The translations under genes and the position numbers were made by a program. Below the pieces are notes generated by a model, which was given only the letters and a program-made list of their open reading frames with translations, was not told the origin of the DNA and did no database searches. From Lactiplantibacillus nangangensis (GTDB lineage: Bacteria > Bacillota > Bacilli > Lactobacillales > Lactobacillaceae), in assembly GCF_005405065.1 (NCBI RefSeq), contig NZ_BJDI01000007.1, positions 124,001 to 188,000 on the forward strand: DNA of 64,000 nucleotides, read 5' to 3'. Shown here piece by piece: positions 39,225 to 44,425 of the stretch (the first letter of the stretch is position 1; the number at the start of each line of letters is the position of its first letter).

Positions 39225-39364
39225 TCTCCCAGCGCAATTAGTTGCAGCCGGTAGCGTTTGCAATTATAATAGTCGCAGATTGATAGAAAGTGACTAACTG
39301 ACTATCGGTCATTAATATTCTTTAGTTTTTAGATTGTTATCGGCGTTGCTGCCATAATGCCGAT

Positions 39365-39482
39365 GAACGATCACTTTCATTCATAGACTCCCCCAAGTCT
39401 TATGAATGGGGTTCATCAAAGCCCCCACTTTGATGTTTCCTACTCCTTGACCACTGCATCCATGATGTGGTGGCTTTTTTTG
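39365..39482 (+). ncRNA. sRNA-like unit A (anti-SD hairpin family)
   Basis: Two consecutive hairpins expose C-rich loops: ATTCATAGACT-CCCCCA-AGTCTTATGAAT (39379-39407) and CATCAAAG-CCCCCA-CTTTGATG (39414-39435). The linker CCTACTCCTT follows, then an intrinsic terminator (ACCAC.GCATC/GATG.GTGG then seven T, to 39479). The C runs are complementary to Shine-Dalgarno sequences. No open frame with a ribosome site is present. The promoter is less clear than in units B-E (CATAAT at 39353-39358). Confidence 0.65.
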
Positions 39483-39483
39483 T

Positions 39484-39609
39484 GCAGAGTGTGAGGACAA
39501 CCGGGTTGAGTGTGAGCATTGCCTAGCCTAGGCAATTACTCGGTGCATTTCCGAGTTGTTGGCTAGGCGTAGCAAGCGGAACACTCAGGTTGGCCGAGCA
39601 CGTTTCGGC
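39484..39609 (+). repeat. 126-bp covarying structured element, tandem copy A1
   Basis: Begins GCAGAGTG two bases after the unit A terminator. Outer stem GGACAACC/GGTTGGCC, second stem GAGTGT/ACACTC, conserved GAGCATTGC/GCAAGCGGA, inner stem GCCTAG/CTAGGC and terminal CTCGG/CCGAG hairpin. It ends with the mini-hairpin CCGA.CACGTTTCGG. Confidence 0.85.
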
Positions 39610-39735
39610 AAGCCTGTGAGGCGTCACGGGTTGCTGGTGAGCATTATCGTGGGTAAACAATTACTCGGCGACCTTTCCGAGTGGTTGCTTACCCGGGATA
39701 AGCGGAGCCCGCAGTGACACCGAACACGTTTCGGC
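39610..39735 (+). repeat. 126-bp covarying structured element, tandem copy A2
   Basis: Exactly one period after A1. Outer stem GCGTCAC/GTGACAC, inner pairs TTATCG/GGATAA and GGGTAA/TTACCC, conserved AATTACTCGG/CCGAGTGGTT and AAGCGGAG, ending CGAACACGTTTCGGC. Confidence 0.85.
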
Positions 39736-39864
39736 AAGAGTGCGAGGCGTCACGGGTTGCTGGTAAGCATTATCGTGGGTAAGTAATTACTCGGCGACCT
39801 TTCCGAGTGGTTGCTTACCCGGGATAAGCGGAGCCCGCAGTGACACCGAACACGTTTCGGCTAT
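39736..39864 (+). repeat. 126-bp covarying structured element, tandem copy A3
   Basis: Almost identical to A2 (changes such as GGTAAAC to GGTAAGT and GGTGAGC to GGTAAGC). It begins AAGAGTGCGAGG and ends CGTTTCGGCTAT, the 3' boundary shared with other copies. Confidence 0.85.
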
Positions 39865-39941
39865 CAATACGATTAAATCCGACTGGTGCTCGATCTACCC
39901 TCAAGGTAAATCCAACACCACCCGGACCTAACAACTAGGAC

Positions 39942-40361
39942 TTAATCCTCTTCAATCTCAATACCATCACGTTGACGTCGCGTGAGAACCCATTCCTTAA
40001 TTTGAACAAGCACCCAGGCAATCCCAGCCGTGAAAAGCAATAACATCAACGTTGAGACTACGACGACTAAAATAATCTGGACGCCCTCTGCCTTTAATAC
40101 ATCCAACTTTGTGACCAACGCCACACCTGACGGAATAAAAATCAAACTAATAATCTGAACAAAGAAGTTGCTAACACCTTCCACCTGTTCCAGCTTCACA
40201 ATTTTCAATGTCAGTAAGAGATATAACAGAATCATCCCAATCAGCGCGGGCGGCATTGGAAAACCTGGCCAAATCTGATTAACCAATTCTGAAATCAAAC
40301 TACTGACAAGTAAAATCACACCATAGATCATAATTTGTTTAATAAATTTTGCTTTTTTCAT
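39942..40361 (-). CDS. lrgA: LrgA/CidA family holin-like protein
   Basis: 139 residues with four membrane helices and the LrgA motif PALIGMILLYLLLTLKIVK. LrgA/CidA proteins form oligomeric holin-like pores or modulate murein hydrolase export and cell lysis; some export metabolites. TAGGAGG precedes the ATG. It lies 10 bases after lrgB, forming an lrgB-lrgA operon in reversed order. Confidence 0.92.
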   Translation of the reverse strand: MKKAKFIKQIMIYGVILLVSSLISELVNQIWPGFPMPPALIGMILLYLLLTLKIVKLEQVEGVSNFFVQIISLIFIPSGVALVTKLDVLKAEGVQIILVVVVSTLMLLLFTAGIAWVLVQIKEWVLTRRQRDGIEIEED

Positions 40362-40370
40362 ATGCGCCTC

Positions 40371-41099
40371 CTAACCTAAACCAACTAAATGAGCGAAACT
40401 TGGAACCATGAAATTCACTAAGATTCCGGCAATCACAAACGCAATCGCGCCAGTGGCACCAGCAGCCTCACTGACTTCAATCGCCTTAGTAGCGCCAACG
40501 GCATTCCCGGCGATACCGAAACCTAACCCTGCGCCTAAAGGATTCTTGTGTAACTTGAACCAACGAATAAAATGATCGCCCAAGGCATAAATTAACACTG
40601 AATTTAAAATAACGGCAAAGGCGGCAATAGCTTGATCACCACCAACTGATTCTGCAACGGGCAACGCGATTGCCGTGGTAGCGGCTTGAACGAGCATCGC
40701 ACCGAGGGCGGCATCCGTTAAGCCCATCAATTGGGACACACCATAGATTCCGAATAGTGATAATAACAGGCCCAAAAATAGCGCTACTAAAATGACATCC
40801 CAATGTTTTTTGAAAATATCATTACGTTTGTATAATGGGACCGCAAAGGAAACGGTCGCGGGGGCCACGAACCAGAACAGCCAATCGCCGCCAATCTGGT
40901 ACGCTTCATAAACTTTGTGCAACGGTGCTTGCAGGGCCGACGCAATCAATACCAGCAAACCAATCCCGAGCAGCATTCCAAAAAATAATGGTTGGAATAA
41001 TACAAAACGATTCGTCTTATGATACAAATACTCGCCAATCCCATAAACTAGCACGGTTAGCCCGATACCAAAAAATGGATTATTGAGAAGATATGCCAA
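40371..41099 (-). CDS. lrgB: LrgB/CidB family membrane protein
   Basis: 242 residues from TTG 41099. About seven to eight membrane helices with the family motif GFGIAGNAVGATKAIEVSEAAGA near the C-terminus. It is the partner of LrgA. Staphylococcal LrgAB restrains autolysis, and the Bacillus homologues act in pyruvate transport, so either role is possible here. No LytSR-type regulator is adjacent. Confidence 0.92.
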   Translation of the reverse strand: MAYLLNNPFFGIGLTVLVYGIGEYLYHKTNRFVLFQPLFFGMLLGIGLLVLIASALQAPLHKVYEAYQIGGDWLFWFVAPATVSFAVPLYKRNDIFKKHWDVILVALFLGLLLSLFGIYGVSQLMGLTDAALGAMLVQAATTAIALPVAESVGGDQAIAAFAVILNSVLIYALGDHFIRWFKLHKNPLGAGLGFGIAGNAVGATKAIEVSEAAGATGAIAFVIAGILVNFMVPSFAHLVGLG

Positions 41100-41279
41100 A
41101 AAATTTCCTACTTTCTTTTGAGGGAAAAAGTGTCAAAAAAATAGCGCACCCATCCGGGTCTAGTCATCATTAAAATGGTGGTTAGGCTCAGAACAGTGCG
41201 CCAACACGGCTCTAAAAATATTATGTTTTAATTATAGCAAGCTAAAGGACAAAATGATAGTATTTTGTTCAATAAGTTT

Positions 41280-42119
41280 TCAATCCACGACATAAAGCAT
41301 CAAAGCGTACGCCCCAATTCCTGTATGCGTGGCAATAATAGGACTCGTTCGTTCGACGAGCAAATCCGTTTGGGGCGCGACTTTCATCATTAAGTCACGT
41401 GGCGCAGTTGCCACGTCATCATCACCGACATATGAGATACCAGCCGCTTCGACCCGAGTCACATCCGCCAAATCGTTTAAGATTTGAGTTTGGGCCTTGA
41501 TCAAGGCTTTTTTCCCGCGACCACGCGTATAAAGTTTCAACCTGCCATCAACCAATTCAAAGACAAACTTTAATTTGATCAAATTGGTCACCACGCCCGC
41601 AATTTTCGGGACACGGCCTCCTTTAACCAGGTTGTCGAGGGTATCGACAAACAAATAGACATGCGTTTGTTGCCGAATAACTTCAATTTTAGCCAAAATC
41701 GTAGCTAAATCAGCCCCAGCATGCGCCATCCGAGCAGCCGTCAGCACTTGAAACGACATGCCACGATCGGCCGACTTAGAATCAACAACTGTGACATCAC
41801 CGCTCGCCAGTTGAGCCGCTTGACGTGCGGCGTTGACAGTCCCACTCAGCGTTTCCGTAATATGTATCGACAAAACCTGACTTCCATCGGCCGTTAACTG
41901 ATCGTATAAAGTCACGAAAGACCCAATTGGCGGCTGACTCGTGGTTGGTAACAGCTCACTGTTCGCCATTTGACGATCAAAGTCCGCCCGTGACAGGGTG
42001 TTATCTGGAGTCAGTTCACCACCAAAGCCGACTAATAATGGCACGATTTGGATATCATATTGTTCAATTTCGTCAGCGGTCAGCTGAACCGAAGAATCTG
42101 TTACAATTTTGATGGTCAT
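41280..42119 (-). CDS. DegV family fatty-acid-binding protein
   Basis: 279 residues. The DegV signature starts at KIVTDSSVQL, with TTSQPPIGSF, HITETLSGTVNAARQAA and VDTLDNLVKGGRVP. DegV (FakB) proteins bind a fatty acid and present it to the FakA kinase for phosphorylation and phospholipid synthesis. The gene is single, with an AAGTGTGATTT region upstream. Unit B lies about 220 bases upstream in the divergent orientation. Confidence 0.93.
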   Translation of the reverse strand: MTIKIVTDSSVQLTADEIEQYDIQIVPLLVGFGGELTPDNTLSRADFDRQMANSELLPTTSQPPIGSFVTLYDQLTADGSQVLSIHITETLSGTVNAARQAAQLASGDVTVVDSKSADRGMSFQVLTAARMAHAGADLATILAKIEVIRQQTHVYLFVDTLDNLVKGGRVPKIAGVVTNLIKLKFVFELVDGRLKLYTRGRGKKALIKAQTQILNDLADVTRVEAAGISYVGDDDVATAPRDLMMKVAPQTDLLVERTSPIIATHTGIGAYALMLYVVD

Positions 42120-42309
42120 TTGAAATCACACTTTCAAGTTGTTTTGCCAGCAATTATAGCATGGCGATACTAGCAGTCCAGCTAGAAGCTTGATACAGCA
42201 ACGTTTAGGAGCTATCATAACAAATCACCTTATCAAAATCGGTTATAAACTTTGTAAAAAACCAACCAATCACGACTATTCTTCAAACCAAAATCACGGT
42301 TTTAGCCTG

Positions 42310-42346
42310 TTCACATCATATTTTCTTCACTAACCGCCGCTATACT
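42310..42346 (+). promoter_or_regulatory. Conserved promoter block of sRNA-like unit B
   Basis: ATCATATTTTCTTCA followed 11 bases later by TATACT (42341-42346). The same spacing and near-identical block occurs before unit C (GTCATACTTTCTTCA, TATACT 42734-42739) and unit D (GTCACATATTCTTCA, TATGAT 43758-43763). The TCA repeats are 11 bases apart. Confidence 0.6.
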
Positions 42347-42352
42347 ATGTTC

Positions 42353-42490
42353 ATAGTCAATTAAGGAATCCCCGTTCCCGAACGACTCCCAACTTAAAAT
42401 TCAATTACTCCCCCCTAAAGTAATGAATTCATGTGTGTAAAACTTAATTTCTTCCCTTTTTCCACCGTATTCCTTGATACGGTGGTTTTT
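42353..42490 (+). ncRNA. sRNA-like unit B
   Basis: The 5' part TCATAGTCAATTAAGGAATCC is nearly the same as in unit C. A hairpin AATTCAATTACT/AGTAATGAATT exposes CCCCCCTAA (loop around 42410-42415). The linker CTTCCCTTTTT and the terminator CCACCGTAT/ATACGGTGG-TTTTT (ends about 42490) follow. There is no credible coding frame. It is homologous to units A, C, D and E in stem, loop and terminator. Confidence 0.75.
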
Positions 42491-42494
42491 GATT

Positions 42495-42625
42495 GCAAGA
42501 GTGTTTGAAACTACGGGTTGCTGGTGAGCATTATCGTGGTTAACCAATTACTCGGCGATCTTCCGAGTAGTTGGCTAACCGGGATAAGCGGAGCCCGCAG
42601 TAGTTTCAAGCACGTTTCGACTATC
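42495..42625 (+). repeat. 126-bp covarying structured element, copy B
   Basis: Starts GCAAGAGTG 4 bases after the unit B terminator. Outer stem TTGAAACTAC/GTAGTTTCAA, different in sequence from the other copies but fully paired. GAGCATTAT/ATAAGCGGA, GGTTA/TAACC and ACTCGG/CCGAGT follow. It ends CGTTTCGACTAT. Confidence 0.85.
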
Positions 42626-42745
42626 TAGATAGAACCGCCACTTACCCAAGCCCACTGTTCCCGGCACTAAATTATTCAAGTCATCATCACAAATTTAGCT
42701 TTTGAGCGTCATACTTTCTTCAAAAATCCCCGTTATACTGTGTTC

Positions 42746-42888
42746 ATAGTCATTAAGGAACTTCCCATTCCACGGTGACAACTAACTTAATTCATTTACC
42801 ACTCCAAGTAATGAATCTAAAAACACAACCTAACTTAATTTACTTTTCCTTTTCGCCACCGTATTTTCCCCGATACGGTGGTTTTTAT
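42746..42888 (+). ncRNA. sRNA-like unit C
   Basis: Promoter TATACT at 42734-42739. The transcript would start GTCATTAAGGAACTTCCC. A hairpin ATTCATTTAC/GTAATGAAT has ACTCC (42801-42805) in the loop. The pyrimidine-rich linker CTTTTCCTTTTC and terminator CCACCGTAT/ATACGGTGG-TTTTT follow. It lies 95 bases before the YugP-type gene. It has no structured repeat behind it. Confidence 0.72.
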
Positions 42889-42984
42889 TGTACTAATTGA
42901 CTTGAATGCCAAGCTTATTTCGCAAACTGTCCTAACTCTGGTAAAATACCCCATAACAATTAAACTTTTAAGGAGTGTTCCTAT

Positions 42985-43683
42985 TTGTTCTATTCATTTT
43001 TTGATCCAACTTATTTACTGGTCATCATTGGTCTAGTGATTTCCATGGCAGCTTCCGGCTATGTTAATCGGACATTCCGCCATTACGATAGTTATCGTAG
43101 TCAGTCCAACACCACTGGTAGTGATGCGGCACGCTTTATCTTATCGCAGTCTGGCATCAACGACGTCGGCGTCCAAGGAATCAGCGGGGATTTAACGGAC
43201 AACTATAACGGCCAAACGAAAATCTTAAGCTTATCTGAATCAACCGCTAATTCAACCTCAGTCGCGGCCATTGGTGTTGCGGCGCACGAATGCGGGCATG
43301 CGGTACAAGATCACGTCAATTATTGGCCGATGCGTTTACGGACGGCTCTAGTCCCTGCCGCTAATTTAGGCTCAACAGCATCGTTACCGATTATCATCGT
43401 CGGCGTACTCTTGAGTTACAATCAAGTCTTGATCCATCTCGGGATTCTGCTCTTTTCACTGGCGTTACTCTTTCAATTAGTGACCCTGCCAGTGGAATTC
43501 AACGCCTCTCGTCGCGCACTGAAAATCTTGTCAGACGGGCAAGTCTTAACACGTGACGAAGTTCCCATGGTCCGAAAAGTCTTAGTGGCAGCTGCCTTAA
43601 CCTACGTGGCTGCAGCACTTTCGACCTTCTTACAACTACTCCGATTAGTGCTATTATTTGGCGGCAATCGTGATGATGATTAA
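42985..43683 (+). CDS. YugP-type zinc metallopeptidase
   Basis: 232 residues from TTG 42985 with AAGGAGTG 11 bases upstream. One N-terminal and two to three C-terminal membrane helices flank the zinc motif AAHECGHAVQDH (HExxH), followed by a Glu in LPVEFNASRRA as likely third ligand. This is the neutral zinc metallopeptidase 2 family (YugP). Its substrates are unknown, probably membrane proteins. It sits between sRNA-like units C and D. Confidence 0.92.
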   Translation: MFYSFFDPTYLLVIIGLVISMAASGYVNRTFRHYDSYRSQSNTTGSDAARFILSQSGINDVGVQGISGDLTDNYNGQTKILSLSESTANSTSVAAIGVAAHECGHAVQDHVNYWPMRLRTALVPAANLGSTASLPIIIVGVLLSYNQVLIHLGILLFSLALLFQLVTLPVEFNASRRALKILSDGQVLTRDEVPMVRKVLVAAALTYVAAALSTFLQLLRLVLLFGGNRDDD

Positions 43684-43769
43684 GGTCTTAACAAAGGCTT
43701 AGTGAATTCTTCATGGCATTGAACGGATTCAGTCACATATTCTTCACACGGTCTGGTTATGATGGCATC

Positions 43770-43924
43770 ATAGCAATTGAGGAACACCTCAACGAGCTAT
43801 AACACAACCTAAAATTTTTCATTTACTCCTCCAAAGTAATGAAATTCATAGTGGCATGTGACTCCCCATCACATGTCTACCCTACTCCTTTTTCCACCGT
43901 ATTCCCCGATACGGTGGTTTTTTA
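43770..43924 (+). ncRNA. sRNA-like unit D
   Basis: Promoter TATGAT at 43758-43763. Hairpin 1 TTTCATTTA/TAATGAAA with loop CTCCTCC (43826-43832). Hairpin 2 CATGTGA/TCACATG with loop CTCCCCA (43862-43868). The linker CCCTACTCCTTTTT follows, then terminator CCACCGTAT/ATACGGTGG-TTTTTT. It has three separate anti-Shine-Dalgarno patches. It follows the YugP gene by about 85 bases. Confidence 0.78.
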
Positions 43925-43927
43925 TCG

Positions 43928-44057
43928 GCAAGAGTGTGAGGTAAAGCGGGTTGAGGATGAGCATTGCCTAGTATCATCAATTACTCGGTGGATTTCCGAG
44001 TGGTTGATGATGCGTAGCAAGCGGAGTCCTCAGCTTTGCCGAACACGTTTCGACTAT
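43928..44057 (+). repeat. 126-bp covarying structured element, copy D
   Basis: Starts CAAGAGTG just after the unit D terminator. Outer stem GGTAAAGC/GCTTTGCC, then TGAGGAT/GTCCTCA, GAGCATTGC/GCAAGCGGA, ATCATCAA/TTGATGAT and ACTCGG/CCGAGT. It ends CGAACACGTTTCGACTAT. Confidence 0.85.
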
Positions 44058-44184
44058 TTAAATAAGCCCCACACTCCAACGTTAATTAATCAATGACCGA
44101 ACCATTTCCCAAGAATTTCAATAAATCGCTCAAGTCGCAGTCACGATACTTACCTTTTAACTATCAAACGGGTATACTAATGGC

Positions 44185-44324
44185 ATGGTGATTGAACTTG
44201 TCACTCAAACACCATATCTTTTTCATTTACTCCTCCAAAGTTAATGAAAATAATCTCGTTGGGCACTCCAACCTAGCGAAATGAACTACTCCTTTTGCCG
44301 TCGCGTAAAGCGATGGTTTTTTTA
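44185..44324 (+). ncRNA. sRNA-like unit E
   Basis: Promoter TATACT (44173-44178). Hairpin TTTTCATTTA/TTAATGAAAA with loop CTCCTCC (44230-44236), then GTTGG/CCAAC, the linker CTACTCCTTTT and terminator CCGTCGC/GCGATGG-TTTTTTT. It ends 100 bases before the alpha/beta-hydrolase gene. Its promoter block diverges from B-D. Confidence 0.72.
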
Positions 44325-44425
44325 TTTGCAAAAATAATAATTTCACCTAGTTATTTTCAGAAAAGTTGCAATCACAAATCCCAACGTAGTATCATGACCT
44401 AGTAAGAAATTAAGGAGTTGATACT

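Follow-up and report, generated by a model that had tools for sequence, protein, structure and literature searches.

Multicopy small RNAs (sRNAs) with C-rich or anti-Shine-Dalgarno sites have been described in Listeria and in streptococci. LhrC1-5 of Listeria monocytogenes (RF00616) are 111-114 nt long and are controlled by the cell-envelope two-component system LisRK. Their redundant CU-rich UCCC sites, located in loops and in a single-stranded stretch, were shown by experiment to block translation (PMC4132741; according to the same paper, lactobacilli do not have Hfq). The csRNAs of the streptococcal CiaRH regulon are five or more related RNAs with unpaired anti-Shine-Dalgarno stretches, and their promoters carry two 6-mers, N5 apart, 10 nt from the -10 box (PMC3091779). 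In Enterococcus, an RNA-seq map contains E. faecalis sRNA_109 and E. faecium sRNA_093, which are similar to Enterococcus sRNA 84 of Rfam (Ref84, RF02846) and are labelled as of unknown function (PMC7724050). Here we analyse five short units, A to E, of Lactiplantibacillus nangangensis. They lie in a stretch of 64,000 nt (assembly GCF_005405065.1, contig NZ_BJDI01000007.1, positions 124,001 to 188,000), which is called the window and in which all coordinates are counted.

We have high confidence that these units are structured noncoding RNAs. Judged from sequence, they probably belong to a multicopy anti-Shine-Dalgarno sRNA family that would be under secretion-stress two-component control and would repress translation; for the regulator and the mechanism taken separately, our confidence is moderate. 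The family is order-wide and is undescribed or only fragmentarily described. It is of the LhrC/csRNA kind in its working and separate from both in membership.

Five units in one locus and two further copies

A preliminary description had placed five paralogous units in this locus, and all five lie where it put them; in each, a -10 box is followed by at least one hairpin whose loop is rich in C and by an intrinsic terminator (Table 1). The number five holds for the locus but not for the genome, where units F and G bring the total to seven. The five terminator-like sites on the plus strand of the region are precisely the terminators of units A-E, and 11 such sites were found on both strands, compared with 4.8 +/- 2.2 in shuffles. 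A generic sigma-70 scan of the region gave 15 sites (10.1 +/- 3.3 expected), which is not clearly above chance, because the -35 boxes are weak; B, C and D carry a direct repeat of regulator type at that place. RNA fold z-scores are -4.75 for A, -3.39 for B, -4.64 for C, -6.27 for D and -4.48 for E, and 0/200 shuffles folded as well as the native sequence for each of these units and for unit G. A second C-rich hairpin had been ascribed to A and D; it is present in both but is not restricted to them, since the predicted folds of all five units contain two C-rich loops. On reading of the region, a linker of CTACTCCTT type is present in A, D and E.

Unit F is located at G000:C9:152372-152497 and unit G at G000:C2:33668-33764 (G000 being the same genome). 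Unit F was recognized by the 26-letter core of unit D, TTCATTTACTCCTCCAAAGTAATGAA, which has one further copy in the genome, within F. This unit is longer (about 240 nt), contains CCCCCC and TTCCCC stretches and has the same linker as D. Unit G has the layout of the other units, with loops around CCCCC.

Conservation within the genus and covariation of stems

The preliminary description had named loss of the loops in related genomes as grounds for discarding the idea, a check that the family withstood. The exact 26-mer core was found in two copies per genome in 21/21 genomes of the genus, and the reversed 26-mer, used as a control pattern, in 0/21. All exact-core loci typed at first were D or F (31/31), and once the partners had been fetched, each genome had a single unit of type D and a single unit of type F. 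The site of unit G is also common to the 21 genomes, 19 of which match the promoter pattern described below exactly and 2 with one mismatch. Copies of type B/C vary in number, with 27 in 19/21 genomes and up to four per genome by BLAST. Within the fetched stretches, unit E was aligned in 19/21 genomes and unit A in 12/21. These unit counts (A 12, B/C 27, D 21, E 19) are BLAST matches of at least 60 bits; they omit partial matches to E and B in one fetched stretch (L039) and to C in another (L045), in both of which such copies give weak matches to covariance model R1 (see below). Both loops and the linker of unit A are invariant in its 12 aligned genomes, and the linker is invariant in the D and F sets as well.

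In the genus alignments, stems change while loops and linkers remain nearly fixed. The alignment of unit D (A3, 16 of the 21 D units) and that of unit F (A4, 18 of the 21 F units) leave out five and three sequences, respectively, that resembled others or had an altered terminator. Unit D has 34 pairs with 99.4% of cells paired, and 7 pairs changed on both sides versus 2.9 +/- 1.0 in shuffles (0/500 as high). Its hairpin 2 changes by compensatory pairs, and the loop retains CCCC with TC, TT or CC nearby. Unit F has 64 pairs, 99.5% paired; here 16 pairs changed on both sides, whereas shuffles gave 7.6 +/- 1.5 (0/500). When the partners are slid, pairing falls to 31-40%. Hairpin 1 is variable in the B/C copies. 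We also looked for a full-length structure shared by all paralogs and gave it up: the mixed alignment retains hairpin 1 only, and therefore R1, which is made of 24 stretches, covers promoter to hairpin 1. Unit E matches R1 weakly (E 0.0044).

Spread across Lactobacillales

The preliminary description had proposed a covariance-model search of Rfam and of Lactobacillaceae genomes. It returned no Rfam family at gathering score in the window, and R1 matched 174/350 genomes of the family in 22/40 genera. The search of the order had been intended as a negative control but enlarged the family, since 124/295 genomes matched, 95 of them in other families. A class-wide sample, searched as a control, gave 9/299 genomes, all within the own order, and thus no match outside it in these 299 genomes. 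At the threshold of E <= 0.01, chance may account for matches in about 1% of genomes, and E-values are rough; weak matches are lost to the stricter filters applied at the family, order and class levels. Among 32 family-level matches from ten other genera that we read, ACTCCTCC is present in 32/32 and the box in all (30 by pattern, 2 by eye), and many show, by eye and without a count, a second C-rich loop and a terminator. At the order level 26/30 units read have ACTCCTCC. These shares are not unbiased, because mostly better-scoring matches were read and R1 itself contains ACTCCTCC. Three Paucilactobacillus species have the exact core, with a box and a linker of the same kind. In a genome from a different family of the order we also observed four near-identical units in tandem, spaced about 212 bp apart (L242:740-1526), an arrangement that recalls tandem multicopy sRNAs.

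The loops are invariant, the stems covary, terminators are present and conservation spans the order, all of which supports the earlier proposal of an anti-Shine-Dalgarno sRNA family.

A promoter box shared with prsA and htrA, and a candidate regulator

In five of the seven units (B, C, D, F and G), the direct repeat TTCACA-N5-TTCACA keeps a constant spacing to the -10 box. Across them the half-sites are TTCACA/TTCATA-like and, after N5, TTCACA-like, and the spacing to the -10 box is like that of csRNAs. B, C, D and F have the pattern CAYA-N-W-TTCTTCA-N11-TANNNT in common, and a scan of the 21 genomes with it gave 93 exact matches, by which unit G was found. Of these, 90 were recognized as family units, either on reading or from their model score (two are weak, at 37 and 42 bits); one (G020:C38) does not belong to the family, and two (G003:C17) were left unread. 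In two genomes of the genus we saw a promoter of the box type followed by a short RNA with a terminator and without the anti-Shine-Dalgarno hairpin (L110:1856-1964 and L111:2050-2150); these score 34.6 and 28.6 bits and are perhaps decayed copies.

A second pattern, TTCAYA-N5-TTCAYA, revealed another site common to all 21 genomes, located upstream of prsA. Its near edge is 117-119 nt from the prsA start in 21/21, and its TTCACA strand faces away from prsA. Upstream of htrA, (G/A)TCATA-N5-ATCA(C/T)A precedes a -10-like box, again in 21/21 (19 by pattern, 2 by eye). Apart from the box, GGGAGGGA(N)CGCGTTT(NN)ACGCG is conserved in the htrA leader ahead of the start codon in 21/21 genomes (L166-L186), and it may form a hairpin next to the ribosome-binding site.

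Seven OmpR-type regulators are encoded in the genome. PhoP was our first candidate on account of its box, TTHAYA, a direct-repeat type that the TTCACA box fits; it was set aside as less likely once prsA, htrA and a PieR-like operon emerged with the box. Between the PieR-like operon and its upstream gene there is a box-like site with two mismatches, whereas the other six regulators have no such site up to their upstream neighbours when two mismatches are allowed. CAYA-N7-CAYA upstream of this operon is kept in 21/21 genus genomes, and the best NCBIfam matches of the regulator and its partner kinase are PieR and PieS. In Listeria, PieRS controls two chaperones, PrsA1 and PrsA2 (PMC12234432). CssR of B. 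subtilis, with the box TTTTCACA, controls htrA, and the authors remarked on putative CssR boxes at prsA (PMC6749698). The likeness lies in the controlled genes: prsA for PieRS and htrA for CssRS, both of which have the box here in 21/21 genomes.

Complementarity to ribosome-binding sites

The exposed C-rich loops and the linker are complementary to Shine-Dalgarno sequences. The C-rich sites differ between paralogs (CCUCC, CCCCC, ACUCC) while this complementarity is retained. The ribosome-binding site of the pieR-like gene, UUGGAGGA, pairs over 8 nt with the sRNA loop and is kept in 21/21 genus genomes; UUGGAGG is also present in 4/49 window genes, and most other genera are without a site of UUGGAGGA type. 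Feedback of the sRNAs on this site may exist and is, on these sequences, a lead only. We note separately that the site holds TTGGAGGA in 21/21 genus genomes (L138:1000-1015) and that in two other genera (L262, L264) it reads ACTTTGGAGG or TTTGGAGGAG, all complementary to the loop.

Comparison with known RNA families

The likeness to csRNAs and LhrC that had been pointed out holds for architecture (multiple copies, redundant C-rich sites, a repeat of two-component type in 5/7 units) and does not extend to membership. Against the LhrC gathering score of 110 bits, unit D scores 22.4 bits (E = 4.9). The core sequence is another one, and the regulator is likely PieRS-like instead of LisRK. As for csRNAs, the box here is TTCACA, in contrast to the CiaR repeat NTTAAG-N5-TTTAAG, and the anti-Shine-Dalgarno stretches lie largely in hairpin loops, in addition to the linker. 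Membership in LhrC or the csRNAs was therefore rejected, and the family was assigned to neither. In genus g43 of family f4, possibly Streptococcus, R1 matched 0/17 listed genomes.

The nearest relative is Ref84, in which the parts appear to follow the same order: 5' UACCAAcAACAACc, hairpin, ACUCCUUUU linker and terminator. Its model gave 16 full-length matches of 36-49 bits in 10/20 order-level loci (the best 49.4), none of which reaches the gathering score of 52; the match of unit D, at 27.5 bits (E = 2), is not significant. Apart from a tRNA, the 20 order-level loci contain no Rfam family at gathering score, and unit F has one Rfam match at chance level. Literature searches in open-licence papers found no description of the family in lactobacilli and no conserved trans-acting sRNA family in Lactobacillaceae, and a text search for the core letters returned only an unrelated Aspergillus paper. 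The earlier doubt whether such a family is described can thus be answered in two parts: for lactobacilli no description was found in this literature, and for Enterococcus the mapped relative similar to Ref84 is on record (PMC7724050).

Layout of the locus

The features of units A-E are listed in Table 1. Long palindromic elements (CAATTACTCGG...CCGAGT) lie downstream of units A, B and D, at 39480-39870, 42500-42620 and 43920-44050, and near-exact copies of the palindromic motif are found at 39658 and 39784. They resemble the cruciform 'supermotifs' (LPSM) of L. plantarum (PMC5643018); the units themselves differ from the palindromes.

Table 1. Units A-E, their predicted hairpins and the direct repeats of their promoters (window coordinates)
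Feature	Position	Strand	Details
Unit A	39353..39482	+	-10 CATAAT 39353-39358; linker CCTACTCCTT; terminator 39451-39473
Unit A hairpin 1	39378-39408		loop CCCCCA
Unit A hairpin 2	39409-39440		loop CCCCCA
Unit B	42315..42491	+	box plus -10 42315-42346; terminator 42462-42485; R1 84.3 bits
Unit B direct repeat	42315..42331	+	response-regulator type, half-sites 11 bp apart
Unit B 5' hairpin			loop CCCC
Unit B hairpin 1	42398-42429		loop CCCCCCUAA
Unit C	42708..42889	+	box plus -10 42708-42739; terminator 42855-42882; R1 93.9 bits
Unit C direct repeat	42708..42724	+	
Unit C 5' hairpin			loop CUUCCCA
Unit C hairpin 1	about 42790-42816		loop CACUCCAA
Unit D	43732..43923	+	box plus -10 43732-43763; linker CCCTACTCCTTTTT; terminator 43894-43917; R1 102.6 bits
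Unit D direct repeat	43732..43748	+	GTCACA-N5-TTCACA, 9 nt upstream of -10 box
Unit D hairpin 1	43817-43844		TTTCATTTACTCCTCCAAAGTAATGAAA, loop CCUCCAA
Unit D hairpin 2	about 43851-43878		loop CUCCCCA
Unit E	44173..44325	+	-10 TATACT 44173-44178; linker CTACTCCTTTT; terminator 44297-44317
Unit E hairpin 1	44220-44251		loop CCUCCAA
Unit E hairpin 2	44256-44279		loop CACUCCAA

Discussion

We propose that units A-E are paralogous genes that would be transcribed into noncoding RNAs of about 110-150 nt, as part of a seven-member family. An OmpR-type regulator, most likely the PieR-like protein of a PieRS/CssRS-like secretion-stress system, would bind the TTCACA-N5-TTCACA repeat that precedes the -10 box in B, C, D, F and G; prsA and htrA would also be under its control. 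Each RNA is predicted to expose at least two C-rich sites, namely loops (CCUCC, CUCCCC, CCCCCC, ACUCC) and, in A, D, E and F, the CUACUCCUU linker. As mimics of the anti-Shine-Dalgarno tail of 16S rRNA, these sites would base-pair with ribosome-binding sites, and the pairing would block translation of target mRNAs, probably those for exported proteins. Repression of translation appears most likely because the redundant sites of LhrC act in this way (PMC4132741), and exported proteins are the likely target class because of the regulon (prsA, htrA). The promoter signal shared with genes for folding and clearing of secreted proteins suggests that the RNAs slow translation when secretion is under stress.

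Several observations weigh against this proposal. Units A and E do not have the canonical TTCACA box. Hairpin 1 is invariant in the D and F sets and is therefore without covariation support there, and further pair types, one of five measures for unit F, do not exceed shuffles (85/500). A duplex test speaks for pairing, with loop and linker predicted to pair more strongly with start regions of 49 window genes than with internal stretches (medians about -8 vs -3.5 kcal/mol), but it is biased toward starts because the starts were chosen by their Shine-Dalgarno sequence, any anti-Shine-Dalgarno sequence would pass it, and it has no bearing on specific targets; a permuted loop also showed some preference for start regions (-6.5 vs -4.4 kcal/mol). 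The regulator is below the NCBIfam equivalog cut-off for PieR (297.8 vs 450 bits) and the kinase below that for PieS (428 vs 850), and CssRS is likened to them by description. The co-occurrence of a PieR-like protein (E <= 1e-75) with the RNA, in 169/174 genomes of the family with the RNA and in 78/176 without it, speaks for this regulator, but these are raw counts that ignore kinship and compare one regulator. Among 20 stretches upstream of pieR-like genes that were read in other genera, one genus (g26) has a clear box and two (g3, g16) a partial one, and in the rest it is unclear or absent, so that autoregulation of pieR in other genera is mostly unsupported. A text search of the PieRS regulon paper (PMC12234432) gave no match for htrA, sRNA or small RNA. 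Lastly, the hairpin loop of the Ref84 consensus is not C-rich, unlike the loops of the units here.

Some of these points would also fit an sRNA family of the same kind under another OmpR-type regulator, for example a LisR/ArlR-like or PhoP-like one, with the box in common with prsA and htrA. We consider this unlikely, yet the strongest of the rival explanations. The box fits other direct-repeat types, such as that of PhoP, PieR-like proteins are frequent in genomes without an R1 match, and the autoregulatory pieR box is not general outside the genus. The PieR-like operon is nevertheless alone among the OmpR-type regulators of its own genome in having the box upstream, kept in 21/21, and the published PieRS and CssRS act on prsA and htrA, respectively. 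A different explanation concerns the action of the RNAs, whose main partner might be a protein or the ribosome, with the RNAs serving as a sponge or a 16S-tail mimic that titrates factors, in place of pairing with particular mRNAs. Across the order the hairpin core hardly varies, a constancy greater than pairing with diverse Shine-Dalgarno sequences requires, and multiple copies with redundant sites are sponge-like. However, the C-rich sites vary between paralogs with Shine-Dalgarno complementarity retained, and LhrC relies on sites of this kind for its pairing (PMC4132741), which makes this explanation rather improbable.

It is very improbable that the units are short open reading frames or 5' leaders of neighbouring genes instead of trans-acting RNAs. 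Open frames do cross parts of the units, and a protease-like gene in the same orientation is found downstream of unit C. On the other hand, the frame starting from hairpin 1 of D is not preceded by a Shine-Dalgarno sequence and is shifted by an insertion in another genome of the genus (G008, the L039 row of A3), sequence changes preserve base pairs in the D and F alignments, each of units A-E ends in its own terminator, and the next gene after unit A is on the opposite strand.

Returning to an anti-Shine-Dalgarno sRNA family under PieR-like control, a wider picture can be drawn, which we offer tentatively and as somewhat doubtful. The family may be part of a Lactobacillales-wide counterpart of the sigma-E envelope response, in which a PieRS/CssRS-like system would raise the foldase PrsA and the protease HtrA and would simultaneously lower, through multicopy sRNAs that mimic the 16S tail, the translation of mRNAs for exported proteins with strong Shine-Dalgarno sequences. 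Negative feedback would act on the mRNA of its own regulator through the UUGGAGGA ribosome-binding site, and Ref84 would be a drifted branch of the family.

Important bacteria of food and of the gut belong to the Lactobacillaceae. An anti-Shine-Dalgarno hairpin that hardly varies across an order, together with a box common with prsA and htrA, points to a concrete candidate regulator, signal and pairing sites in these organisms, and it suggests a function for an Enterococcus sRNA that is now labelled as unknown.

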